DNA of 64,000 bases, taken from positions 62,374,960-62,438,959 of the forward strand of contig NC_052359.1 in the NCBI RefSeq assembly GCF_009727055.1. The letters are read 5' to 3'. How positions within the stretch are numbered: position 1 is the stretch's first letter; every line of letters begins with the position of its first letter. Shown here piece after piece: positions 2,905-63,197 of the stretch. The notes below the pieces were generated by a model that had not been told where the DNA came from, searched no databases, and was given only the letters and a program-made list of their open reading frames with translations. Source of the DNA: Benincasa hispida. Lineage: Eukaryota; Streptophyta; Magnoliopsida; Cucurbitales; Cucurbitaceae. Made by a program: the position numbers and the translations under genes.

Positions 2905-3032
2905 TAATTACATGTGATATAATTAAATTATATGTGATATAATTAAATTAATTAAATTATATGTGATATAATTAAATTAATTCAATTATATGTGATATAA
3001 TTAAATTAATTCAATTATATGTGATATAATTG
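2905..3032 (+). repeat. AT-rich tandem repeat inside LTR
   Basis: About five imperfect copies of a 20-30 bp unit built on TATATGTGATATAATTAAATT. Reverse copies of the LTR family (e.g. ~10345-10385) hold only one or two units, so the array expanded in this copy. Confidence 0.85.
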
Positions 3033-5270
3033 ATTTGATGTATTAGATACATTAATTGGAGGATTAATATAAATATGATTTATATTAAATACCATACATA
3101 GAAAAAGAACTATGGTTTATATGTTTCATATGATGAAATATTAAAACTATAGGCTATAAATATAATATGATAAGTTGGTTATCATATCTATTTAAATATT
3201 AATTATATGATAATTATTCTTTTTCTTTAATAACCGATTGAATGGGAGGTTATTGGAATGATTATGGTAACTGTTAGATAAAAGGAAAATCATTTTCCAA
3301 AAATCAGATGATCATTCATTTGTGTTGTTTGACAAAAGAAAGGACTATCGAGTAAAAACGTTTTACTAAACGATAGTGTCTCACAGCTTACACGATCAAA
3401 TACCGAGTTTACTATACGATAGTTACTCGCTTACTCGTTGCTACATGATCGAATAACAAAGTCTATACGATAGGCTTCTTTTTTCTAAACGATCGAGTAT
3501 CTAGTCTATAGGATAAACTTCATACATCTCCCACTTACTCGATCGTCTATCTCCTTCTTTTCTTTCTTCAAAGTCACACAAAGCCCGCAACTCCTGGATT
3601 CTCACACCGAGAATACCAAGGTAACACTTGTGGTGGTGTTCTAGTTCTGTTCGAGGTTTGGGGATCGAGTTGGACTCAATAGTGATTGAGGATTCATCAA
3701 TTCGTGTTGTTGGCTATTATGTTCGTTATGTTCAAGTGCTTCTTTGGACGCGTTGGAGATTGATCAAAGGATACTTGAAAAAAGAGTTCTTCAAAGGTTT
3801 ACATACTCTATCCCTTGTTCATTCTTTTAAGAAGCATGCTTGTAATTTACTGATTATGCATAATCGTTTCTGTTTAGACCGTAATAGTTTAAGTTCTTTC
3901 ACAATGGGATTTGGAACAATCCGTTTTTGCTCATTGGATCTCTATGTTTAGATTTCCTTCAATTTGACTTTTTAGTATAATGCGTCATTTCTGAACTATG
4001 TACTCTTTCAACAGAGCCTCAAGTAGAAAAGAGGAACTCGACGCAGTTATACCTCTGTTGTAAGATTGTTGCGGTGGTTCTTGCTGAGTGTGCTGAAATC
4101 TCGATGGGGTTCCCTGCCTCTGCTGCTGCTGCATGCTAGAATGCTCTAGGTTTTGTTGATGGCCTCTTAAAGAGAAATTAGGATGGTTTCTCTATCTTGG
4201 TTTGTAAGTGTTGGAGAAATGGTTGTTTTTCACAAAAAAGACAGATTGTGGATTTTGAGGACAAGATTAGAGGAATGTGGCTCGCCTCAACCCATACAGC
4301 TAATCACAGGTTGTCCCGACGCATCTATCTTATGCAAATTCTAATTTAAGCTATGTGTTCATGGTTAAGTTGTTCAGCATGTTCGTCATGGCGACCACTT
4401 TCTTTGCTAAGTTGCTCACTACGTCATTATCTATCATTCCTGCTCTTCGACGCCTATCCTTCAATTGAGATTCATCCCGCTCCATGTTTTATTTGGTTGT
4501 TCAATCTAAAATCTCTTTAGCTTCATCATAGGACTTGATCATAATCTCTCCTACAGCGACTGAGGCTACAACCATCTGGGAATGTTTATTTAGATCAATA
4601 TAGAACGTTTCCATTTGAACCGTGAGAGGCAACCCATGGTTCGAACAGTTCTTAACTAACCATTTAAATATATTCCCACGCATCACTTGAGGTCTCAAAA
4701 TCTCTCTGTTCGAAGTTCATGATTTCCCTTCAAAGGAACAAAGATAGCCTTATAGATTCAGGTGTGATTCTAGGAATCACAAATAAATTACATGTCTCCA
4801 AGAAACACTTTAAGTGTACATGGGGATCCTCCCCGCGTGTTCCACCAAACTACCCTATAGTTTGTAACATCTATAACATTACAGACTTCATTTCAAATCT
4901 GGTCCCATCGGGGTTGGATATATGATCCCAGGTGTAAAGTCATATAGAATAGGTGAAGTATATTCATGCATTAGATGCCTGCTATTGTTCGCCATCTAGA
5001 TAGTATTATTGACAATATTTTTTAATTGTTGAGCCATGTGTTGGTTATTTTGATCGTTAGCCATTATTTTCTGCCTTTGCCTCCACCTTCTATTAGCTCT
5101 GATTCATTGACATAAGGTTCTTTCAATCTCAGGGTTGTATTTGGGCTCAAAAGAGTCTTTTGTGCTTATAAAACGTTTATAGGCTCAAGCTCAGCTTGTA
5201 ATACTCCTTTAGTTGAGAGTTCTACAAGAAAGATTCAATAAACCAAATTACTATTAGCTACATCGCCTAA

Positions 5271-5288
5271 TTCCCAGTAATGGCACCA
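5271..5288 (-). other. Primer binding site of G2
   Basis: Minus strand reads TGGTGCCATTACTGGGAA, a diverged form of TGGCGCCGTTGCCGGGGA found just inside the 5' LTR of Tat/Athila-type gypsy elements. It lies 6 bp inside the LTR end at 5295. Confidence 0.8.
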
Positions 5289-5294
5289 AAAACT

Positions 5295-6835
5295 TGTTGC
5301 ATTTTTAATCATTCTTTGCACTTGTGTCGTTTTCTATCTTATTTTGAGTTTATGCGTTAGGAGATAAAAATTAAGTTTTATACAAAGCTCTTAGTTGCGT
5401 ATAAGTTTTCTTGAGTTAGATCTAAGTATAAACCTAGCCCAAGTTTCCTGGCAAGCCCAGGGTTAAATGCAAGGATTAGTTAGTACTAACGCAAGATGGT
5501 GAGATGATCTTTCGTTGTGTGATTCTAAGTATAGATATATGTGTTGAGATTCTAAACTAAGCTAAGCTAACATACATGTAAGAGAAAGAGGTTTGAAAGA
5601 TGGGATATGTTGACAAAATATGTAATGCGTTGGGGCAACGTGATGATTCCTTAGTAACAGACAACAAGTTTATGTGAAATCAAGGGAATGAGATGGGGTT
5701 GGGAAGATTAACGGGTAATCTTTAAGTATACATGTATGATGTGTCTAGGTTCTGTTCTCTACTTAAGTATTTCAATATCTCTCGATGCATTGGCCACATT
5801 TATCTTATCTCTAAGATGCATGTGTTTACAAATATGAACAGATCAACATGACTAACTTATCTCTAAAGCTACTCAATATTATTACTTAATGCGTTCAATA
5901 GTTATTTTCTCTCTGAAGCAATTAACTATTTCTACTCAAATCGATTGATTAGATGGATTCAAGCATAAAACATTTAAGTATACATCAAGCAAGTTAAACG
6001 CACATACATGTGACTTAGCAGATTAATATTTAGTTCCACCGAACCCACGACAAATTTAGCTACTCATGATGAAGGAAAGTAAGAACATGGATGTGGAAAT
6101 GGATGAAATCATGATTAAATTAATATTAACAAAATATTTCTACAAAATCCCAGTTCAATCAAGACAAATAATGGAAGAAAATGCTAAGTAAGGAAAGAAA
6201 AGTGTCAAGTCGTTGGGGTCAATCTCATTCTACTTTTTGCTTGATTTTAGATGCTTGCTGCCGTGACTGAGGTGAGGATGTGTTGAAGGTCGTCTCTCTC
6301 GAGCTCTAACTCTAGCAGAACCTCCGTAATCAACGGTGGAAATGGTGGTCGGACTCCTCTTCTTCTTGTTGTCGGTTGAGGAACTACTTTGTACAGAGAT
6401 TCTACTGCCTACTTCTAGGTGTCTAACTTTTTAACTCTCTAACTATTTTTTTAGGTGGATAGCATCTCTTTTATAGGCACTTGGACTCAGCAACTTGTGA
6501 TGTGATAGGATTAATTTTCAAGCCTTCTTGTAGCTATTTGCCATTCTAATCTACTCAGACTTCGCATGTTAGGTTGCCCATACCGTAAGTTAAGATTTAG
6601 CGTTAAGTGCACGAGCGAAATGTATCTTCTTGAATTCGCTGGGTTCCAACGCATGCTTCCTGCATTGGCTTCTCTACAACACTTAGTGAAATTCCACGAT
6701 TGCTGCATTATCAAGCGTTAGTAGTGCACGTTTCTTTAAAAACGATACTTTTCTGAAATGAATGTGTTTCTCTTTATTTGACCCTAATTATTCTAACTTT
6801 AAGAAAACAATAACTTGTATTTCTACAAGTTATCA
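5295..6835 (-). mobile_element. 5' LTR of gypsy G2
   Basis: 1541 bp. Minus strand starts TGATAACTTGTAGAAATACA at 6835 and ends ...ATGCAACA at 5295, directly followed by the primer binding site. No open reading frame of note. The right edge interrupts the PMD gene; the following GGCAC (6836-6840) would be the target duplication but its partner is not in the window. Confidence 0.8.
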
Positions 6836-7471
6836 GGCACCACCCCACAAGTACGTACCAGTATGCTTGAAATCATCCAATAGTGGAAGAAACATAAGAT
6901 GTACCCGAGAATTCGACTTGTTGGCAGACAAAAATCCTCCAATAAGCTACATAATATATGCTCATGCATACTTCTGTATGCTGATGTCGTTGGCATGAGA
7001 AGATAACTCTAGAAATTGGGACACTAACCACGGGATACTCAATCTTGAGCCTTTCAAATCATTTGGTCAAATGCCCAAAAGATCATCACAAATAGTTTTT
7101 CAATCATATTGTAATGAACTTGTCACAAGTCCTCCGTCCACTAGTAATCCAAACAGAATTGCGACATCCTACAATGTAATTGTGCATTCCCCACAAGGTA
7201 TATGAAATGTGTGGGTTTCTAGTCTCCAACGCTTTACTAAAGCAGTAATGAGGTGTCAATCTAGTTGGATAAATCCAATCTATGCAACCCCAAGAAAACC
7301 AGCTTGTTGTACATAAGGAATAATACGTGGATCAAACGAGATAGTACATTGTGCAGATCCCTCCTTTCTTCGACAGCCCAAAACTACAGCAGAAGAACTA
7401 TCCCATATTGATTGTAAATGATGAATATTTTATTGATATTTTGCATAGGATTAGAAGGATCAGGATCCATG
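6836..7471 (-). pseudogene. Plant mobile domain (PMD) protein, broken
   Basis: Minus-strand remnant of the PMD (aminotransferase-like plant mobile domain) family, found in plant nuclear proteins and in some transposons. Starting at 7471 it reads MDPDPSNPMQNINK; further pieces match the family's QAGFLGLHRLD (~7310), the ETRNPHISYTLWG stretch (~7200, family HTFHMPxGE) and LPLLDDFKHTGTYLWGGA (6890-6837), the last truncated by the G2 LTR. Several frame changes and stops occur, so it is inactive. It lies just downstream of MULE M1 in the same orientation; PMD genes are known to associate with Mutator-type elements, so it may have been carried by M1. The linkage is inference. Confidence 0.7.
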
Positions 7472-7499
7472 ATGCACAAACACTAAAAGAATGCAAACA

Positions 7500-7660
7500 C
7501 ATATTAATAGAGTCAATTCCATAACAAAGTTTATTATATAAAAGAAGTTCGTTACATAAAAAATTCAATTACATAACAATTTCAATTATATAAAAAAGTC
7601 CATTACATAACAATTTCAATTATGTAAAAAGTCCATTAAATAACAAAGTCATCAATGGCT
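7500..7660. repeat. Short tandem repeats between PMD and MULE
   Basis: Three imperfect copies of a ~45-bp unit built on AATTACATAACAATTTC and AAAAAGTCCATTA (about 7530-7640). No coding potential. Confidence 0.65.
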
Positions 7661-9460
7661 CAAATAGGAAGCACCTAATGAACGATGTGAACAAGTACGC
7701 TTGTTATGTCCTCCCTTGCAAATTGTACATCAAACTTTTTGACTAGCCCCTCTCCAATCCATTTCATAATGAATTCGTGCACTTTTTGTCACACCCCCTC
7801 CTAGTTTACCCTCTTAACCTTTAAGGGGATGTGATGCTAGCAGTTACCGACCTTCTCGCCAGCACGTACTGCCTAACTTACCTATATAACCTGCTTAAAG
7901 CCTTGTTATACATTTATGACTTAGCAGGATAATATTCTATAACCGAACCAGCAAATGAAAATTATTTACAATCTCAGAGTTGACAAACAAAACAAACATC
8001 CAACAAAACAACATAAGAGCAGAAACGATGGGTCCCAAAACATATTCACTAGTTCTTGACTCCTCTCACAACATGTGTATATTATTTACAAACTTTAACC
8101 TAAGTTTTCTCCTTCCTGGCCAAGTCTTGAGTGGCAAGTGGCAGCATGTTCAACCTCGGGGAATCTGACCGCTACCTGAAAAAAAGAAAAACATTGGGAA
8201 ATAATGAGTTGGTTGCCCAGTGAGTGACTTGTATGAAACAGTTCATCTCACGCCTTTCATACACATATTAAACATGTAAACATGTTGAAATCAAACTCAA
8301 GCAACTTTTATAGAATCATACATTAAAACATAACATCACACCTCGTACATATTTACAAACCTTAGTTGAGAACGAGCGTTTGTAGCTCAAGCTCCCAACG
8401 TCCATTCATGGCCATGAGACCCATACTTCGGTCCCAATATAATGAACTGTGGCCAGGAGACCCATACTTCGGCCTCTCATACTGAACTACCTATGTACAC
8501 GTGGAGTATACTAACTACCGTCAACACCTTAGGTACTTCCTCGGATACCTTCTATACCTTTGGCATCTGGCTTACTAGAATCGTACCATTCATAGAAAAT
8601 ATGTGTAAATAAAGCTTTAAGCATAGCATTTACCTAGCTTTCACCATAAAAGCATTGTCACATTTCGACATGCATGCTTCATGAAATATAAGCATTTAGC
8701 TTTTACAATACTTTTACATTCAGCCCTGACATGCGCTAAAACTAGTAAAACTTACTTAAATAGCTTGAAACATCATAATTAAGAAATGCTATGAAATCTC
8801 TAATATCATATGTATAAACTTTAGTTGCTTGGAAAACATATAAACCTTAGCATGAAATTCATTTGGAACGCATGATCTTTTATATATAAAGTTTAAAGAC
8901 ATTTAGTCACTCATGGGTCTTTAAGCTTGTTTTCTTAGGCTTGGTAGGCTTCTCCAATGGGTGTTGCTCCTACACACAAGAATATTAATTCAGCTACTAC
9001 CTTGGTCTCCCTATTGAGGCTACCCTTTTCAAACAAAGCTCACATTTATTCCTTTCGCTTTCAATTCTTTGTAACTTACCTTAGGGCGTAGGGTACTTAG
9101 TCGAATTTAAAATGCTTAAACAGTAGATGGTCGCCTCCTTTCTAACGCCCACACCCAATACTTAGTAGGATTTTTGGGGTGTCAAACTAACGTTTAGCAA
9201 GTAATTGCCTGTTTGTTCAACAAATTCTAGATTCGGTTTCTAATGTCAATAACTCGAAATCCATAACTCATTTTAAGAAAATTCCTATTTCAAACATGCT
9301 CAAAATTGTGTTAACAATGTTACCTAAAAATTTCAATATAAAACTCCTCGTGGTTTGATCTAGGGCTTTAAATCTTCTTCATTGTCCCTAATCCACATAG
9401 CTGCCTGCTTGTTCAACAAATTCTAGGTTTAACTTCCAAAATATGTAACTCAAACCCCAA

Positions 9461-42205: not shown

Positions 42206-42529
42206 AGAGTGTTTGTTTCAAGGGTTGTTTAGGCATTTTAAGCCCAACCTTTGTTTGGAGCAAGGATCTACTTTCCCGTGGGATTGAATCACTACAAGAA
42301 TTTTGGGCTTTATTGTCAATTGGAAAAAGTGAAATCGGGTGTATAATGTCTGTTTAAAAAAAATGAAAAATCGACATTAAAGATCGGCTACAATGTTAGT
42401 TTAAAACCGACATTAAAGGTCCTCATTTATTTTTTTTAACTTTAGTAAAAAATATCTCTCTTTCATTTCGCCACCTTTCTTCTCTCTCCTTTCTCACTTC
42501 TCTCTTACAAACCCTCTCTTCCCCTTATC

Positions 42530-43060
42530 GTCCAGATCTGGTTGTTCGTGTATCGATCTGTCGTGGGGTTTAGTGGAGGTGGGTCGCTGGTTGTCAGATT
42601 TGGCAATTCAACTCGCCATTCAGCTCGTTCGTCGTGGAGGTGGGTCACCAGCGTTCAGGTTCCGGGTCTTTCGATCTGTAGAGGTCTTCCGATCGTCGTG
42701 GTTGGTAGTTTAGTCGTGGGTCTTTCGTCTGTAGAGGTGGGTCGTGGATGTGGGTCACCAACGTTTGAGTCTTCCGGGTCGTGGGCTTTTCTAATCTGTA
42801 GAGGTGGGACGCTGGCGATCATCACCAACTCGTCATGGGTCATTTTCATTCAACATTGTCTTCATCTAGCGTTGTCGTTCTTTGCCATTCCGGTGGTGCA
42901 GATCGCCATTCACAGCTCGCTCAGATCTAGTCGGCCAACTCTGTCGTGGGGTTCTTCAGCTTATTATCCAGCTCCTTCTGGTTGTCAGATCTGTTTGCTC
43001 TGTCGTTTTTTTGGTCGGATCTTTTCGCTTCGCCTGTTCTTTTAGCCCCGATCTTCACTC
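42530..43060 (+). other. GC-rich block with direct repeats in the CACTA element
   Basis: Unusually GC-rich for the window, with repeats of TCTGTAGAGGTGGG(T/A)CG and GGTGGGTCACCA. A 167-codon open frame crosses it but has repeat-like composition and no recognised domain. It could be a captured promoter/5' UTR. Confidence 0.45.
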
Positions 43061-44266
43061 AGATTTGTTTTTTCGAGGTTTCTTTTTACTGATTTTTCCT
43101 TATTTGTTCATAATATAATAAAGTTCCTGATTTCATCTTGTTTTGCGATCAACATAGTATTTTTTTCCCCTTCTTTTTAATGATTTTTCCTTCTTAGACT
43201 TATTGGGGTTCCATCCAAGTTGTTGATTTCATCTTATATGATTAATGGGTGCACTTATTTCTCTTCCATTTTTCTTTCGATTCGTAAGTTTAATTTCTTT
43301 CTAATCGAAGGAATTTGGTTGTATTGTTTATTGATGTGCTATTTATCTGAATATCAGGAGATTTCCAGCTTATGTGTGAAGCCTTGCGAATGAGTAAATA
43401 CCATCACTACGGTTTTCAACATTAAGAAGTCTGAGGTAATTAACAGAACTTCATGTAGAATAATTGAACCTTTTGAAGAGGAATAATTTCTTAATCTTGT
43501 GTATGTTGCCTTACAATGTCAGATTCCAGCATTTATATAGAGATTGATTGAGTTTTGATTCCTAGTTATAAGTATCTGCTTCCTATTCATTTTATTATAT
43601 TATCTATGATGAACTTTTTAAGACCAATTCTAACGGTACTATTTGAGATATATATATTTGATGAACTCTTAGGTTACTATTAATTACATGATAATATTGC
43701 ACACATTTTATAGCGATCGATTGATATTTTAAAGTTACATTGCATGTGCTTTGTTCTCGATTCACTAATGAAGAGTATTTTCAAATGAGATGCAAAGGTA
43801 CTCTTAAAAACTATTATGCTTAGTTATACCAAAATATTTATGAATAATTATGGAAGTCAATGTAGAAAAGCTTAGAAATTGAGACCAAAGAAAATGCTAC
43901 TTCACAATGAGAATTCCTACTAAATGCTAGCTTATTTTTGCTAATATCAGGGAATAAGGACGTTTCTTTTCATCATCATAGTTGTCAAAATATTGATAAG
44001 ATATGGAGAAGTAATATCTTATCTTGTCGTGTCTATTTCGACATTGGTAAGTAATTTTCATTGTATCTTATGTGTCCCAAAGCAAATATTTTCCTATAAT
44101 AGCAACAACGTTCAACATGAAACTTAAAAATAAGAATTTATTTAATTTGTTTTAAAGTCCATTGCTATACATTATATCTATAGAAGTTGTGACCAACATA
44201 AAACTTTTTTCCTTTCCTTTCCTTTATTTGTACTTCTATTTGAAATTTTCTTAATACTCCTCTTAG

Positions 44267-44325
44267 GCGAAGTGATTGAAAACTGGGGAGACTTTTGCCA
44301 TAAAGAAAGTCTTACAGGACAAACG
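44267..44325 (+). pseudogene. GSK3/shaggy-like kinase exon fragment
   Basis: 59 nt after a splice-acceptor-like CTTAG. Translates to AK, stop, LKTGETFAIKKVLQDKR, matching the N-lobe of plant GSK3/shaggy-related kinases (family: CLETGE.VAIKKVLQDKR, including the ATP-binding Lys). The Cys codon is a TGA stop and the expected donor GT reads TT. Captured inside the CACTA element, non-functional. Confidence 0.8.
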
Positions 44326-44431
44326 TTAAGATAATTTGGAATTTTCTTATAAAAATCTTGCAGGACATTTTTTATTTATTCTTTTCCATCTTCATTCCAA
44401 CATTAAATCAATGTGTTTATTAGATCTTCAG

Positions 44432-44499
44432 GGGGGCTAGCTTATATTCACATTGTTCCTGGAGTTTGTCATCAAGATGTAAAGCCTCATAATCTTTTG
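44432..44499 (+). pseudogene. GSK3/shaggy-like kinase exon fragment, catalytic loop
   Basis: 68 nt bordered by ATCTTCAG and GTATGT, splice-site-like on both sides. Reads GLAYIHIVPGVCHQDVKPHNLL, the GSK3 catalytic-loop region where the family has HRDVKPQN. Arg is now Gln (CGA to CAA, typical of methylated-CpG decay) and Gln is His. In real genes other exons separate this from the previous fragment; they are missing. Confidence 0.85.
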
Positions 44500-44656
44500 G
44501 TATGTAACGTATTTGTGTCTTATTATTTGTGAGCTAAGTAATAGTTTCTCTGCTCCTCATCTTTCATGGGTTCATTTTGATTCTTCTTTCCGACGCTTTT
44601 AATCTTAAGAGAATAACCTGGAAGCGTTTCGTTGAGCTTTGGAAGCTTAGGCTCTA

Positions 44657-44760
44657 ATGGGTTTCATCAGATCTTATAAGCCCACCAATGGCTTCTCTCC
44701 TAGATGGGTTTTTCTATTTAGCATTGCTAGCTTCTTCCTGGGTATTTTTGTTGTCGATAG
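44657..44760 (+). pseudogene. Beta-1,3-galactosyltransferase-like first exon
   Basis: ATG-initiated fragment of ~35 codons: SPRWVFLFSIASFFLGIFVV, then DR and a GTATTT donor. The short cytosolic tail, RWV before a single signal-anchor helix, and the DR ending match the N-terminal region (DUF4094) of plant Golgi beta-1,3-galactosyltransferases (GT31). Open and uninterrupted. The family call rests on this short region only. Confidence 0.55.
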
Positions 44761-44934
44761 GTATTTTCTCTTTTTTTCTTTTTTGTGCCTGAGGTCTTGT
44801 TTCCTGAGTATATTACATGAAAGACATAATAGAGTTGGAAATAAATCAATGAGATAGTATGCTTCTCTAAATGTACTCTTTGAGTTTATTGAAAATTAAA
44901 GAATACTATTTTGTGATTTTGCTTTGGATCATTT

Positions 44935-45069
44935 GTGAATGCAATTAGCAATATCAAGTCAAACTTATGGGATAAAGAGGGATTGGCAAGGAGATCTATG
45001 TGTGCCGGTGGAATACCCTTAGAGTGGATTGAATTGTAGCAATGCAACTACTTCAAGAATCATTTATTT
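44935..45069 (+). pseudogene. Malectin-like LRR receptor kinase exon fragment
   Basis: Reads VNAISNIKSNLW, then after a one-base shift RDWQGDLCVPVEYP, stop, SGLNCSNATTSRIIY, followed by a GTAAGT donor. This is the linker between the malectin-like ectodomain and the leucine-rich repeats of plant LRR-I receptor kinases (family: KRDWQGDPC.P..Y.W.GLNCS). The Trp codon is a stop. A third unrelated captured gene. Confidence 0.78.
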
Positions 45070-45754
45070 GTAAGTGCAAGTCTTTTATAAAGCTCAAGTC
45101 TTTTATGAAGTTTCTTGATGCCATCAAATTCCTGTTTCCATAACTAAGTTTCAAAGTCTTGTTGTTCTGCTAGCTTTAAAATGTTGTCATGTTTTTTGGA
45201 TATCTAGGGTGAATTTTGCTTATTTCAAATATTTGGAATTTGAAAGTGTTTTAAATTTAAGTTGGATCTTAATTAGATGTTTGAGTTGAACTTATAATAG
45301 GTATTTGTTTAGTTTACTTGAGTTGTCATTGAATACAGTTGGTTAGTTTTTAACAAGTTTTGTTGGATTTATTTTATGAAGTATTGAATATTCATTTTTT
45401 GAGAATTTTGGTAACTCTGTTGAGAAGAAGTGGTTGTGGGATATTATTGGGAGTGTGTTTCTTTAAACGGGTTCAAGGTAAATTTTTTATCTTGTTGTGG
45501 TAGCGTTCTTATGCTACCGAAAATTTTCAAAATATAAGAGTAATAAACTTGATTTCTTGATTGTTTGAGAAGCACTTTTAAAATACTTAGGTAAGTAGAA
45601 TTCTACCTATTGGGGTCTGTTCTCTTACGTGCTAACATGATCCTTGATTTACTTATTTGTTCAAATTGTTGTTTTCAATTTCTTGGATCATGTTGTTGAC
45701 ATTGTAGATTTTTCGATTTATGATTTGATTTGATTTGATTGATGGGTTTTTCAG

Positions 45755-45909
45755 ACGACATCACGCATCTTGCGGATTGGAAGGTGGAAAGGTTCGAGAC
45801 GAACATTTTGAAGAGGAGTTGTGCCTGAGATTGCTACAAAAAAAGGGAAAGGACTACCCTATTGGCCCTATTCTTCTTGGATTCTTCATTTTTGTCATCA
45901 TTGGATCAT
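45755..45909 (+). pseudogene. RAMP4/SERP-type ER membrane protein fragment
   Basis: 155 nt between TTTTTCAG and GTGAG. Two frame changes break the reading, but the pieces LADWKVERFETNILKR and KKGKDYPIGPILLGFFIFVI plus IGS match nearly the whole coding part of RAMP4/SERP1 (family: LADRKVERFEKNITKRG..PET..KKGKDYPVGP..LGFF.FVVIGSS), a tail-anchored translocon-associated protein. The last exon is missing. Fourth captured gene family. Confidence 0.88.
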
Positions 45910-46410
45910 GTGAGTTTTAGATTTTGGATGCTAATTTCCTCTTTTCCTCTTTCATATGCTTATGCTTATGTTTTGGCATACTTTGGATTTTTATTATGTG
46001 ATTTGAGCTTCTTTGTGGTTGTTTATAACAAGAACATGATATCTCGGCCTTCTTTGCAAATTTCCATGAAGACTCGAAATCAAAGATTTGAGAATTTATG
46101 TACATACGTATATGTGTGCAGAAATGTAATTGTTTAAATGTTGGTTGTTTAAATGATATCTCGACCTACTGTATGGTTGTTTAAATGTTGTCTTTCCATA
46201 GCTCTATAGCTTGAATTTCATAAATTCTTTTGTGTGGGGTAGTTGAATTTTTATTATATGTTGTTTGCCCATTTTTCTCTACTTATAGGAAGTCATGCTT
46301 TCGATTTGGATCAAATTTGTGGTGGATGGTGGAGAGAACATAATGAAGGAGCAATTGAAAGACTATTTTGAAAACATTACATTATATAATGACAACAAGT
46401 GTGTGTACAC

Positions 46411-46438
46411 TTTTGTTTTGTTTTGTTTTGTTTTGTTT
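46411..46438 (+). repeat. (TTTTG)n microsatellite
   Basis: Five to six TTTTG units, followed at 46446-46458 by 13 N, probably an assembly break at the repeat. Confidence 0.9.
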
Positions 46439-46445
46439 GGGGAGG

Positions 46446-46458
46446 NNNNNNNNNNNNN
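46446..46458. other. Assembly gap (13 N)
   Basis: Run of 13 N inside the CACTA element. Confidence 0.99.
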
Positions 46459-46792
46459 AAAGTTTTAGTTTGTATTTTATAGTTTAAAAGTAAGTTCTCG
46501 CTCTTTTTTTATATACTAATAATGTTGTTTGGATTTAACAAAATTTTAATTTTGCTATGTAACCCTTATGAGTTTTGGTAATTTGTTGATTACCTTGGTT
46601 TTAGAGTTAAATTATCATCCAATTCCTCTTTGTGACTTATTATTATGGATTTGTGAAAGTAATTAAGAATTTATTTTGTGCATATATAGATTGATTACCT
46701 TGGTTTTAGGGACATGTCTGTTTTTTACTTTTTGACTGACATTAATAATGGATTGGACAATGGTATTTAAAAAAATGGACAATAATTTTGAG

Positions 46793-47000
46793 CTTTAATG
46801 TCGGTTTAAAACTGACATTAAAAGCCTTTAATGTCGGTTGACAACCGACATTGAAGATCGTGTTATAAAAGGTCTTTAATGTCGATTTATTCAATGTATT
46901 AAAGACAACCGACATTAAAGACCTTTTATAACACGATCTTTAATGTCAGTTGTCAACCGACATTAAAGCTTTTAATGTCAGTTTTAAACCGACATTAAAG
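46793..47000. repeat. 92-bp inverted repeat at the CACTA 3' end
   Basis: Arms 46793-46884 and 46910-47000 with a 25-nt spacer; only a few mismatches. Each arm contains several CTTTAATGTCGGTT / AACCGACATTAAAG units, so arms are themselves palindromic. Transcription through it would give a long hairpin. Confidence 0.9.
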
Positions 47001-47021
47001 TCTATAATTCTTGTAGTGAAT

Positions 47022-50640: not shown

Positions 50641-50908
50641 GTAAGATTTGGTGGGAGTGGGATAATATGGGAGAGGATAAGGGTTTGTGGTTTAAATAGA
50701 GCTTTCAATATTACTTTTACCAATGGGCTGGTTTTCTTTCTTGTCCAAATCTTACGTGGCTTAGCGTAAACAGCTGGCCTCCTTACTATTACGCCACGTC
50801 ATCACAATCCTTCTCTTCCATTTAAAACCAATCCCTCTCTCCCATTTTCTCTTCAACTTTCAAAATTCAAATCTCTCTCTCTCTCTCTCTCTTTATTTTC
50901 TCTCAGAA
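50641..50908 (+). promoter_or_regulatory. Promoter and 5' UTR of the small host gene
   Basis: Contains a GATAAG I-box-like site (50676-50681), CCAAT (50720-50724), and two ACGT-core sites in opposite orientation, TACGTGGC (50753-50760) and GCCACGTCAT (50793-50802), the type bound by bZIP factors in ABA-, light- or stress-responsive plant promoters. A (CT)n tract (about 50873-50891) precedes the ATG, typical of plant 5' UTRs. Sites are seen; regulation is inference. Confidence 0.55.
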
Positions 50909-51172
50909 ATGGAAGGTCTAATTCCCTTTGTTTACAAAGCATTTGTTCAATACAAGAATGAAAAACAAGTCCCAGCGATCCGATCTTGGCTCTGCGACTC
51001 CCCTTCCACGTCCTACATCAGACTTCCGAGCGGTGATTCCGGCCGATTTCAATTCCAATCCGACGGCTCACCTTCTTCTAAATCACCCTCTTCCACCGCT
51101 ACCCAGATTCTGGTTTCTACCGGAGTTCAATCTCCTCTCCGCCATCTGTCGACTCGACGGGTTGCCGCCTAA
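50909..51172 (+). CDS. Small conserved plant protein of unknown function
   Basis: 87-residue single-exon frame starting MEGLIPFVYKAFVQYKNEKQ, then SWLCDSPSTSYIRLPSGDSG, a Ser-rich middle and a basic end (LRHLSTRRVAA). This layout (MEGLIP.VY.A..QYKN start, SP..SY.RLP.GDSGRF middle) matches, as far as I recall, a family of short uncharacterised plant proteins; no enzyme or membrane domain is visible. The start is supported by AAATGG context after a pyrimidine tract. It is GC-richer than its surroundings, has a promoter-like upstream region, and TTTGTAATATGTGG follows in the 3' UTR. It is the only frame in the window that looks like an intact host gene. Function unknown. Confidence 0.72.
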   Translation: MEGLIPFVYKAFVQYKNEKQVPAIRSWLCDSPSTSYIRLPSGDSGRFQFQSDGSPSSKSPSSTATQILVSTGVQSPLRHLSTRRVAA

Positions 51173-52254: not shown

Positions 52255-52415
52255 AAAGAGCGATAACGAGAAAGGTGGAGAGAGCGAGATAGAGTGACAA
52301 CGAGAGAATGAGATAGAGCGACAGCGAGAGAGCAAGATAGAGGGACAATATGAGAGCGAGATAGAGCAACAACGTGAGAGCGAGAGCAATTGGGAGCAAC
52401 AGCGAGAAAGATCCA
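52255..52415 (+). repeat. GAGCGAGATA-rich purine stretch at MULE M2 5' end
   Basis: About ten GAGCGAGA / GAGCGACA words just before the first recognised transposase coding. Words of the opposite sense (TCTCGCT) occur at 51886-51930 and at 56705-57005 beyond the gene's end. Confidence 0.7.
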
Positions 52416-53498
52416 TGTTCGATACGGAGGTCATTGGGATGAGAACCAAAATTTGTATGTTGGAGGCGAGCTAACAGGAATCATTGTGCCTATTACATTG
52501 AAGTATGAAAAATTTAAAACTCACATTTATAGGGTTGCAAATTTAAGTTGCTCAGAGTTTGATGTTGCTATGGGAGTTAAATATAAGCTTAACTTTGAAG
52601 CCCCTCCACAGTACATAAGGAATGAGGTGATGTTTGTTTTCTTCGTTTTCGAGAAGATCTTTGTAGAGTTTAGTTATTATGTAACGCTAAAATCATACCA
52701 CGACGGAAATGTGAATATGAGTTATGATGGTACAGGTGTAGACAGACAATACGAGGTATCATATAAGCTTAATCGAGAAGAGGGTAATATTCCATTGTCT
52801 ATGAATATTCAACCATCAACATTATCAATAGACAATGACAACATTCATGCAGTGGATTTGGAAAGAGAAACTCAATGTAACGAACCTGTGCTTGGTAATG
52901 AGAGATCGGGAGGACTTACTTTAATGAATTGTGGTCCTTTAGAAGAGCCTGATCCTTTCGTTGTTGGTAATGAGAGATCAGCGGGCTTGAATTTTATGGA
53001 TTGTGGTCATTCAGAAGAGCGTGATCCTTTCGTGGTTGATAATGAAAGATCAGTAGGATTGAATTCTATGGAACGTGGTCTTTCAGAGGTGCGTAGACCT
53101 GTAGTGGATATTAATAAGAGATTAGTAGGATTGAATTCTATGTCTTCATGTCGTAGAGGGGAATTGATTATGTCTGGTACCTCTTCATCTGAGACAGATG
53201 TTGAAGTTGGTCAATTTCTTTTGAGTAAGAGTGACTTAAAAATGAGATTATTTATTCTGTCCATAAAAAATAATTTTAAATATAAGGTAAGAAAGTCAAC
53301 TAAGTCTTTGTTTACTATCAAATGTATCGAGGATAATTGTAAGTGGAGCCTTCGTGCAGTGAAAATTCCAGGGTGTGACATATTTAAGATCACGAAGTAA
53401 ATGCGATCGCACCCATATTCTATTGGAATTTTAAATCATGACCATAGACAAGCAACGATTGCGGTAGTTGGTGAACTAATCAAAGACAAGTTTACAGA

Positions 53499-55181
53499 CA
53501 TGGTGTTGGATTTTATGTCTTAAAACTCGTGGTTTGTAAACATTAAAACTTATTCTGAGAATTCGATAAAGTTGTTGTTGAATATATATATATATTTTTT
53601 AGAAATCCAATAAACCTAAGTCCCTTGACTATTATATGAGTACTTGAACTTTATGTGGAGACATACAAGTGGTTCAGGTTCAAGTAAATAGTCAAAATGA
53701 TCTATAGTATATGAATAAGGTTGGGGGTACCTTATTCTAGTAACACTATTGGATGCGGCCTACTCTATAATTGTTACAAAAAGTTATAAAGTGCTACATA
53801 CGAAGTGATCCTAATTCGTGCATGTTGAGACATGAGGAGTGGAGGTGTCCTGTGCAAATGAGTTTTGTGCAAGATCGACCACGAAACCTGTCACTCTTAC
53901 TTTATAACGTTGTTTACTATTTAAGACTGACTATTTCAAAGCGATGACCTAGGTAACTTAACCTTAATCCTGAGCTAACTATGAACTCCTGTTTGTTCGA
54001 GATTATCCTTTGATCTACAAACGGTGAGAGTAGACCAATTGCCTTAGCTCAATAAGCTTACCATTTTGGGGATAAGACCAGATGAATTGCTGGGAACATA
54101 GGGTGCCAGAGGGAATTCACTCCTACCCGATTAGGGTTAGTAGAGAGGTTGTTCCCTTCAAGTGTTGATTTTGGGTCTTGAACAAGAGGCCTCACCCTCT
54201 CATTGGCCTGAGAGGGATTCAATTTGTTGATTAGATTATAAATCAATTGTTCATTAGGGGATCAGTGGAACTTAAGGAACAAGAAGTAAGTTCGAGGTTA
54301 AAATAGAGATTCGACCTAACCGTTTTTACGAGCAATTTGTGAAGGGTTAATTTACTAATCATGGTTATATCGAGTGGACATAAATATCTACAGTGAGTGA
54401 AGTTCAGCTATGGGCTTTAGTGAAATCACCCATTAGTTAACGAATGGGGGTTAGATCGGTCTAATGAATTTAGCCAATTAATCTCGGATCGTTGGAGCCC
54501 ATGATCTGTAGGTTCGCGAGGTCTCAAGCTACCCTAAATCTTGTGTAAAAATTAATTTAATATTTGATGTTAAATTAATTAATTTTTAAATTAATTTATG
54601 AAATTAATTTAAGAAAATCATTTTTTGAATTAAAATGGTTTAAAAACATTTATGTTTTAAAAAGAAAAATGGAAAAATGTTTTGCATGATTGCACAAAAT
54701 GGAAAATGAGTTTTCTCCATTACCATCATCTTTATGCTCACACAAAAATCATTATCTTCTCTACTTTGATTCTCAAGCCATGCACTCCATCTCTTTTCAT
54801 GTTCATCTAAATATATAAAGAAGATTGGAGTTGTTGGAGAAGGAAAAAAAGACAGAATTTTGAGAGAAAATTTTCTGAAGAGGAAACTGTCTTCTTCAGT
54901 CGGGCTGCTGTGAGCTTTTCTTGTTTCTTCATATCTTCAAGGTTCTTGAGTCCCACAACTCTGCCTAAAGCTCCAAGAGAATAGTAGGGAAGGATTTGAG
55001 GTGGTTCACGTTGATATCAAGTGAAGACAGTGACTGAACAGACGTTTTCTTGGAGAGTTCATCAAAGGTATGTTCTGAAAACCCACTTTTTAAGAAGAGC
55101 ATGCTTTAGTTTTTGCCAAAATTAGTGATGCTTATGGATCCTTGATACTTTCGTTGCATGTTTTTTAACTCTTACACATAG
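53499..55181 (+). mobile_element. Solo LTR in MULE M2, TSD CATGG/CATAG
   Basis: LTR 53504-55176 (1673 bp), TGTTGGATTTTATG... to ...ACTCTTACA. Flanks CATGG (53499-53503) and CATAG (55177-55181), 4/5 identical. The coding frame of M2 continues across the excised LTR. It shares the conserved LTR core (~53690-54540) with the C2 family and carries a hairpin at 53851-53871. Its tail is nearly the same as bases 1-90 of the window. Confidence 0.9.
53851..53871 (+). other. Conserved LTR hairpin, G-U form
   Basis: TGTGCAAA, loop TGAGT, TTTGTGCA: all eight positions pair if two G-U pairs are allowed, which fits RNA better than DNA. ~348 bp from the LTR start. Confidence 0.65.
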
Positions 55182-56590
55182 GACTTGTTTATAAACCTCG
55201 TCACATCGTTGAGGACATGAGGAAAGAGTACGACGTAAACATAAGTTATGATAAGGCGTGGCGTGCAAGGGAAACCACTTATGCTCTTGCTAGGGGTACT
55301 CCAGAAGAGTCGCACATTGTTTTACATGCACATGGTGAAGCATTAAAAATGGAAAATCCAGGTACAAGGTTTGAAATCGAACTTGAAAATGATGTCATTT
55401 CAAGTACATGTTTATGGAATTAGGGCCTTGTATTAAAGGATTTTCAAGTTGTTGACCTGTGATAATTGTTGATGGATCGCATTTGAAAGGAAAATACAAA
55501 GGGACCATGTTGGTAGGCGTTTCCATGGATGGTAACAACCAAGTTTACCCACTAGCATATGCCATAGTAGACAATAAAACTGATCGAGCTTGGAAGTGGT
55601 TTATATCGAATTTGAAGTGTGCCATTGGAGAACCCCCTAACTTGTTGTTCGTGTCCAATCGAGCGGTATCTATTGACAATATCATTTGTGCAGTTTTTCC
55701 TACGACATTTCATGAATTGTGCACATACCACCTAGAAAATAATATTCTTTCCAACTTTAAGGATAGTACGATTGTTGGGATGTTCAAGGATGCAACCAAG
55801 GCATTTCACATGTCAGAGTTCCAAGCACACTGGAACCAATTATGTACTTTTCGAAATGGTGTTGTATCAAAATATTTTGAAGATATTGGTCTTGAAAGGT
55901 GGGCGCATGTTAACCAAACATAATGCAGATACGATAAAATGATGTTCAATAGTGCAGAGTGTTTCAATTCATTGACCAAAGAATATCGACAGCTGACCAT
56001 AATGTGTTTATTGGAACATGTTCGATGCATCATCCAGTCATGATTTTATGAACAGAGAAATTATTGGGCATTTCAAACGACGTCATACTCGGACTACTAT
56101 GAAAACCAATTAGTAATTGAGTGTGACAAGGGCAGACGATATCAAGTTGAGTCGATTGATTATTATAGGATCCATGTATGGGACAATCGATTGGACGGTA
56201 CTGTGAATCTCCATACGAAGGAATGCACGTGCAAGGAATTTGACTCACTCGGTATCCCATGTTCGCATGTAGTTGTGTCTGCGAGAACGAAACATCCCCA
56301 TCCGAGGTTTGTGCAGTTCATTCTATAGCGTTGATTCTCTCATGGTTGCTTATGTAGTGCCTGTAAATCCACTCGGTCACATATCTGAATGGAAGAGACA
56401 TCCGAGATATGTGGAAAAGCATATTGAACCTCTTAGAAGAGTGGTACAGGTCGGACGACGAAGAATACAAAGAATACCATCAAAAGGAGAATATCGCAGA
56501 CAAATAAAATGTGGTAGGTGTGGGAACTACGGGCATAATCGACAAAACTTCAGTGAATCGCTCATGTTCGGGCGACCTACTGATTCTTAA

Positions 56591-63159: not shown

Positions 63160-63197
63160 CTGTCTCTTATACACATCTAGATGTGTATAAGAGACAG
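63160..63197. other. Nextera junction adapter (synthetic)
   Basis: Two Tn5 19-bp mosaic ends head to head: CTGTCTCTTATACACATCT (63160-63178) then AGATGTGTATAAGAGACAG (63179-63197). This is the junction adapter of Nextera mate-pair libraries and is not plant DNA. The ORF reading across it gives the well-known contamination peptide [12 protein letters not shown]. Confidence 0.98.

Follow-up and report, generated by a model that had tools for sequence, protein, structure and literature searches.

A CACTA transposon of wax gourd probably loaded stepwise with DNA from five host genes

Transposons that carry host genes are commonly presented in their final form, and a locus in wax gourd (Benincasa hispida) raises the question of how such a product is put together. 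The locus is a CACTA element of 4,729 bp at positions 42290..47018 (plus strand) of the window, by which we mean the whole stretch of 64,000 nucleotides analysed here (C11:62374960-62438959). Between its ends we found DNA of five unrelated host genes, and searches of the Benincasa hispida assembly (912.9 Mb in 1,791 contigs) revealed that single-cargo, intermediate, fused and compact copies of the family coexist with all five donors. We consider it very probable that the element is of the Pack type, like Tgm-Express, and that it was loaded stepwise with DNA of the five genes, was moved in trans and now carries a cargo that is decaying neutrally.

The CACTA element and the origin of its cargo

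The element begins and ends with exact 11-bp CACTACAAGAA ends and is flanked on both sides by the triplet AAT (42287-42289 and 47019-47021), its target site duplication (TSD). Seven matches to CACTACAAGAA with at most one mismatch were found in the 64-kb window, the only exact ones being those at 42290 (+) and 47008-47018 (-). The inverted terminal pair, taken over 41 nt with a few flanking bases included, is 78% complementary, and subterminal repeats of the TTTAATGTCGGTT type occur at both ends, along with repeat families D1 and D2 and inverted pairs. A terminal inverted repeat (TIR) that begins with CACTA, a 3-bp TSD and subterminal repeats place the element among the CACTA transposons, as an earlier reading of the sequence without database searches (the sequence-only reading) had proposed from the TIRs and the AAT. 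Helitrons, to our knowledge, have neither TIRs nor TSDs. Because the longest stop-to-stop frame (198 aa) had no transposase match, in a scan of this frame and some of the shorter ones, we classed the element as non-autonomous; a transposase supplied in trans would have copied it around the genome. Host gene DNA from five donors, enclosed by CACTA ends and without a transposase match, is the make-up of a Pack-CACTA element.

Host-derived DNA accounts for ∼2.2 of the 4.7 kb, introns counted, and every piece lies in sense, in keeping with the common orientation noted earlier. The sequence-only reading had claimed at least four unrelated host genes captured at the DNA level with introns partly kept; we traced five, each to a donor locus, and the donor alignments take in flanking introns. 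Its five exon-like segments kept their homologies, but not all of the splice-like borders assigned to them held, as described below.

The gene that this reading had missed supplies the first piece (43237..44199, +), which comprises four exons (43358-43435, ∼43523-43570, 43746-43799 and 43951-44046) with introns. It aligns by BLASTN in three blocks, at 78-84% identity and with ∼147 bp of donor sequence missing near 43664, to a BtrG-like gene on the minus strand at C12:63.39 Mb; a weaker match neighbours it at 63.41 Mb (query 43060-44210). The donor protein, with exons joined by hand, had 721 matches at E≤0.001 among 786 candidates. Among the 120 matches listed, those with names are plant proteins, mostly uncharacterised, several of them called ‘Butirosin biosynthesis’ or BtrG-like and one bearing an unrelated lipase name. 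In Pfam neither the BtrG-like peptides nor the donor protein had a match, and in NCBIfam the BtrG-like peptide had none. Within this piece, 43563-43947 also matches alone at a group of other places in the genome, which perhaps represent a further mobile family, and one further family-like BtrG match lies at C8:64.02 Mb.

Two pieces derive from a GSK3/shaggy kinase gene at C5:60.15 Mb. P1 (44208..44328, +; 105/122 identical to the donor) spans an intron end, an acceptor and the first 62 nt of a long exon, and P2 (44381..44548, +; 152/168 identical) spans an exon at 44424-44499 between intron sequences; they form two collinear blocks that lie 254 bp apart in the donor. The 19 genome matches of a GSK3 query (44230-44530) were family copies, the C5 gene and four short, weaker ones on C3, C1 and C10, and among solved structures the joined peptide matched best to 8qcw, a serine/threonine kinase (E 1.1e-10), and to chains of GSK3-beta (1.5e-9). 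The kinase origin of the exons once drawn at 44267-44325 and 44432-44499 was therefore upheld, but not every one of their borders was. On our reading of the donor frame, P1 stops inside the long donor exon, so the GT that seemed to end the first exon is probably accidental, and the donor alignment moves the start of the second to 44424.

The GT31 piece (44546..44800, +; 228/257 identical) corresponds to C12:2008895-2009147 and holds the region upstream of the ATG, a first exon at 44657-44760 and the start of an intron. The peptide of the element is weak alone (DUF4094, E 0.0049, below the Pfam cut-off) and had no match in a protein search, but the donor gene with hand-joined exons scores for Galactosyl_T (E 1.4e-18) and DUF4094 (E 6.2e-17), which bears out the galactosyltransferase first exon proposed at these positions. 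A Gypsy element lies between exons 1 and 2 of this donor (C12:2.009-2.021 Mb), whose later exons are readable.

Next to it, an exon end, an intron, an exon at 44936-45069 and an intron start (44808..45096, +) are 255/289 identical to a receptor-kinase gene at C9:9.2 Mb, the other exons of which match most of a cucumber kinase (P0021). The piece itself is 83% identical to a cucumber malectin-LRR kinase (E 1.6e-13; two of six candidates passed), whereas the linker peptide had no Pfam match and no relevant solved structure. The malectin-LRR origin of the linker formerly placed at 44935-45069 thus stands, and its acceptor does not, as the AG is now TG at 44934. At the donor locus, a second kinase-like stretch adjoins the donor gene (oriented positions 3-1237 and 2940-8358 of the fetched locus), so the locus looks like a tandem cluster.

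The last piece, from a RAMP4/SERP gene (45688..46118, +), comprises an exon at 45755-45909 between intron sequences and is 86% identical to the gene at C1:93.9 Mb. That gene encodes residues 2 to ∼52 of a RAMP4 protein of Benincasa hispida (P0004) without difference, with the last exon further on. The hand-joined peptide of the element matches the Pfam family at E 2.7e-16 and cucurbit RAMP4 proteins at 77-83%, in agreement with the exon assigned earlier. A query of 45690-46060 found at least 41 places listed (best 40 of 91 candidates), the gene and the window included. The RAMP4 copies read share early frame breaks, so a single RAMP4 capture may have spread widely.

Outside these pieces, the 5′ end of the element (42290..42526, +) holds the TIR, subterminal repeats and the start of a leader, and includes the stretch matched by most of the genome places listed (42440-42526; best 40 of 212 candidates scored). 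The GC-richer leader that follows (42527..43060, +) has degenerate internal repeats and long matches at only five places among those listed, the window included; it is possibly a further captured 5′ region. A repetitive CACTA backbone (45204..45675, +; best 40 of 443 candidates scored) precedes the RAMP4 piece, and beyond this piece lie a run of 13 N (46446-46458) and the 3′ end with its subterminal repeats and TIR (46590..47018, +).

Partly loaded relatives and the joins between pieces

If the cargo was loaded in steps, partly loaded copies may survive, and the genome holds them. The kinase piece found 18 places including the window, and we fetched all 17 others. Eight of these carry, whole or in part, the block that contains GSK3 exon 2 and GT31 (44329-44808; L010-L014, L016, L017 and L019, with L017 and L019 partial), and five are shorter copies with BtrG, GSK3 and kinase pieces but without the block (L009, L015, L018, L020 and L022). 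A further one, L023, has the kinase piece and no other host piece, and the remaining three are kinase genes (L021, the donor, with L024 and L025). The first 33 bp of the block are missing from L011, L012 and L016. Among the nine copies that have GSK3 exon 2 or GT31, seven have both (the window, L010-L014 and L016), and RAMP4 lies downstream of the core in three of the nine block-carrying copies, the window again counted. Four of the 17 loci have CACTA ends with matching TSDs of their own (L010, ATA; L018, AGT; L022, ATA; L016, ATT, where the 3′ end differs at one base); in the others, at least one end was not found when a single mismatch was allowed, or the flanking triplets do not match.

Single-piece relatives were also found for BtrG and RAMP4, a status that holds, as for L023, for the stretches fetched. 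L036 and L037 carry the BtrG piece only; in both, one of the two flanks has subterminal sequence of CACTA type, and the 4.5 kb fetched for each contained no TIR within one mismatch. From 18 RAMP4 regions chosen, we read four shorter stretches, one of which is the gene itself; two hold RAMP4 as their sole host piece (L031, 5.5 kb; L032, 4.5 kb), and the fourth holds only RAMP4 in the fetched stretch, with its 5′ part outside it (L034). The separate captures suggested by the sequence-only reading are therefore borne out for BtrG, the kinase and RAMP4, which have single-piece relatives, and are less clear for GSK3 exon 2 and GT31, which are mostly found together.

The joins suggest that two routes contributed. 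Within the core, P2 shares 3 bp with the GT31 piece, a gap of 7 bp separates the GT31 piece from the kinase piece, and in the five shorter copies P1 is joined directly to the kinase piece at 4 bp (TATA) that, on our reading, both donors have. All joins other than that of RAMP4 are abutting, with 3-4 bp of microhomology or a few filler bases. With introns kept throughout, this structure fits end joining or template switching at the DNA level: host DNA pieces would have been joined end to end, with microhomology or filler, into the GSK3/GT31/receptor-kinase block, by a process that would resemble error-prone repair or template switching.

The RAMP4 unit most likely came in differently, by fusion with a RAMP4-carrying CACTA element and not directly from the gene. 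In L010 and L014 the core keeps its own 3′ part (∼450 bp) without the TIR and then runs into a RAMP4 unit of which the 5′ end is missing, an arrangement that suits fusion. A matching 3′ part is found in L018, a copy with a TSD and intact ends on both sides, and in L010 the whole 6.7 kb lies between exact CACTA ends with the TSD ATA. Two cargo-carrying CACTA elements would have inserted close to each other, lost their inner ends and then moved as one. Fused ‘AB’ elements of a rice Mariner family, and similar CACTA cases, have been described, as products of neighbouring insertions that were remobilised together (PMC8903248). In the window copy, core and RAMP4 unit are joined directly near a shared TTTT. 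This join, near 45675, is seen in the window copy alone, and a later internal deletion of a fused copy would most simply account for it.

The history of the GSK3/GT31 block can be read in both directions. The shorter copies break exactly where 44329-44808 begins and ends, which favours late insertion of the block, whereas the collinearity of P1 and P2 with the GSK3 donor, together with two extra kinase-donor bases present in most longer copies, favours its exact loss. Neither the tree of the kinase piece nor the divergences from the donors tip the balance. In a tree of 43703-44328, seven longer and five shorter copies fall on opposite sides of one branch (100/97), and with the BtrG donor and the BtrG-only copies as root the two groups are sisters (75/85, 81/85). 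In two trees, the copies that have RAMP4 downstream of the core, three in number, form one group (83/90; 83/88). In the tree of the kinase piece, all 15 transposon copies are set apart from the genes (96/91), as would be expected from a single kinase capture.

Two further accounts of the block were rejected. Loss of an intron through RNA would not produce the shorter copies, as two bases that would be removed by splicing at that GT are still present at their junction of P1 and kinase. A nested transposon in 44329-44808 was considered because a TA-like duplication flanks the block, but no inverted ends were present in the borders viewed.

Fate of the cargo and rival explanations

The element might instead be a functional exon trap, with captured exons spliced into chimeric transcripts that are useful to the plant or to the transposon. 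The splice dinucleotides are intact at 12 of the 13 donor-defined sites checked in the window copy, every piece is in sense, the frame of the GT31 first exon remains open, and soybean Tgm-Express1 yields spliced chimeric transcripts (PMC1947982). However, stops or frameshifts interrupt the frames of BtrG, GSK3, kinase and RAMP4, the window copy has lost the kinase acceptor, 5 of 13 copies lack one of the BtrG acceptors, and what was taken for the first GSK3 exon is a fragment of an exon. The comparison among copies also speaks against a trap: splice dinucleotides agree with the majority of copies in 122 of 136 cells (89.7%), compared with 89.8% over 2,024 other dinucleotides, and 53% of 5,000 random dinucleotide sets do as well or better. 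Per-base agreement is likewise 94.5% in exons and 94.6% in introns and untranslated regions. We saw no purifying selection on exons or splice sites among the copies, in a comparison whose power was limited (13 sites, up to 16 rows per segment). A selected chimeric gene, which the donor-based count of splice sites alone would favour, was rejected as the preferred reading on this background rate of decay. We regard the exon trap as quite unlikely and conclude that the captured pieces are probably passive cargo, from which transcripts may still arise.

Could a single capture event, or repeated local capture at one site, have filled the element, with the simpler copies as products of deletion? Deletions are common among the copies, and P1 and P2 keep the order and orientation of one gene, which a single capture followed by internal deletion explains simply. 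Yet the five donors are spread over four contigs (two on C12 and one each on C5, C9 and C1), BtrG-only, kinase-only and RAMP4-only copies exist, and the kinase-only L023 contains an additional 64 bp of the kinase gene that the rest of the family lacks. The pieces also differ in mean divergence from their donors (BtrG 16.7%, P1 15.3%, P2 13.7%, GT31 11.9%, RAMP4 11.5% and kinase 10.2%), values that suit a BtrG piece that is the oldest, with the order of the others blurred by constraint on donor exons. One event is thus very unlikely. An assembly artefact or a pseudogene cluster in place of a single mobile element is scarcely credible: a run of N lies within the element and unremoved adapter elsewhere in the window, but the same core joins are seen in further copies on different contigs, and four of these copies have TSDs of their own.

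Several observations weigh against stepwise loading with passive decay, or blur its details. No transposon remnant lies between the GSK3, GT31 and kinase pieces, so the fusion route lacks support there. The 3′ TIR of L014 was not found within one mismatch, and in two other copies, L011 and L012, RAMP4 is found on the upstream side of the core, which suggests that the two were united more than once or rearranged. Tree supports are modest, the sister branches fit gain and loss of the 44329-44808 block alike, and the kinase-piece tree, in which the bootstrap had not settled, leaves longer and shorter copies unseparated. When the copies are compared with the donors, 122 of 136 splice-site cells agree, against 74% of other dinucleotides and 70% of other AG/GT; because this excess vanishes in the copy-to-copy comparison, we read it as constraint on the donor genes. 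Finally, five genes all in sense would occur by chance about once in 16, at most a hint of bias. Stepwise loading, followed by neutral decay of the cargo, nevertheless remains our preferred explanation.

An inverted repeat on C5, the rest of the window and known systems

Two of the copies, L011 and L012, together form a giant inverted repeat at C5:41,562,000-41,578,443, with 7,735 aligned columns, 91.4% identity and a 1.48-kb spacer; one arm runs into the limit of the sequence fetched. The longest perfect stretches shared with the five donor loci are 28-42 nt for the L012 arm and 22-35 nt for the L011 arm, and are possibly intronic. One may imagine the family as a modular assembly line in which the C5 repeat makes a hairpin RNA and the resulting small RNAs act on CACTA elements and donors, although we think this rather unlikely. 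If it were so, one locus would turn a gene-carrying family into a source of silencing for CACTA elements and donor genes alike. Such a mode would resemble that proposed for maize Mu killer, where hairpin RNA is the suggested source of silencing (PMC3440606).

Elsewhere, the window holds Copia, Gypsy and Mutator-like pieces. Mutator-like transposase pieces occupy 52378-55923 (DBD_Tnp_Mut, 1.9e-10; MULE, 2.1e-17), with a 72-bp tandem repeat at 52888-53142 inside this region, and a 135-aa frame at 50765-51172, 3.7 kb downstream of the element, is a possible start of a host gene. Positions 63160-63197, inside a Gypsy-like reading frame, are an exact 38-bp match to what we take to be the Nextera mate-pair junction adapter, and the draft assembly may be misjoined there.

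In the literature, of which our coverage was partial, we found no published title that deals with this element or with wax gourd CACTA elements carrying genes. The closest parallel is soybean Tgm-Express1, a 5.7-kb CACTA element with exon and intron pieces of five unrelated host genes within inverted-repeat ends; chimeric spliced transcripts were shown there, whereas the wax gourd element is read from DNA alone and has partly loaded relatives in view (PMC1947982). Pack-CACTA and other Pack-TYPE elements are also non-autonomous carriers of host coding DNA, in maize often from several loci; they differ in their hosts, and the wax gourd element packs five genes into 2.9 kb and has two fused relatives, being itself a likely compact derivative of such a fused copy (PMC8903248). 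Non-autonomous En/Spm-type Tpn1 of Ipomoea nil, similarly, keeps its ends around an interior replaced by captured host genic DNA, in another host and with other cargo as far as compared (PMC5105172), and maize Helitrons gained several gene pieces in sequential steps (PMC3288121).

Each principle is thus already known, from Tgm-Express1, Tpn1, Pack-TYPE elements and stepwise Helitrons. The captured exons, all in sense, bear no sign of having been kept for function. What the wax gourd locus adds to these systems is a cucurbit family whose surviving copies still show how far loading had gone at different stages, so that the order and the mechanism of loading become testable by comparison of cucurbit genomes.

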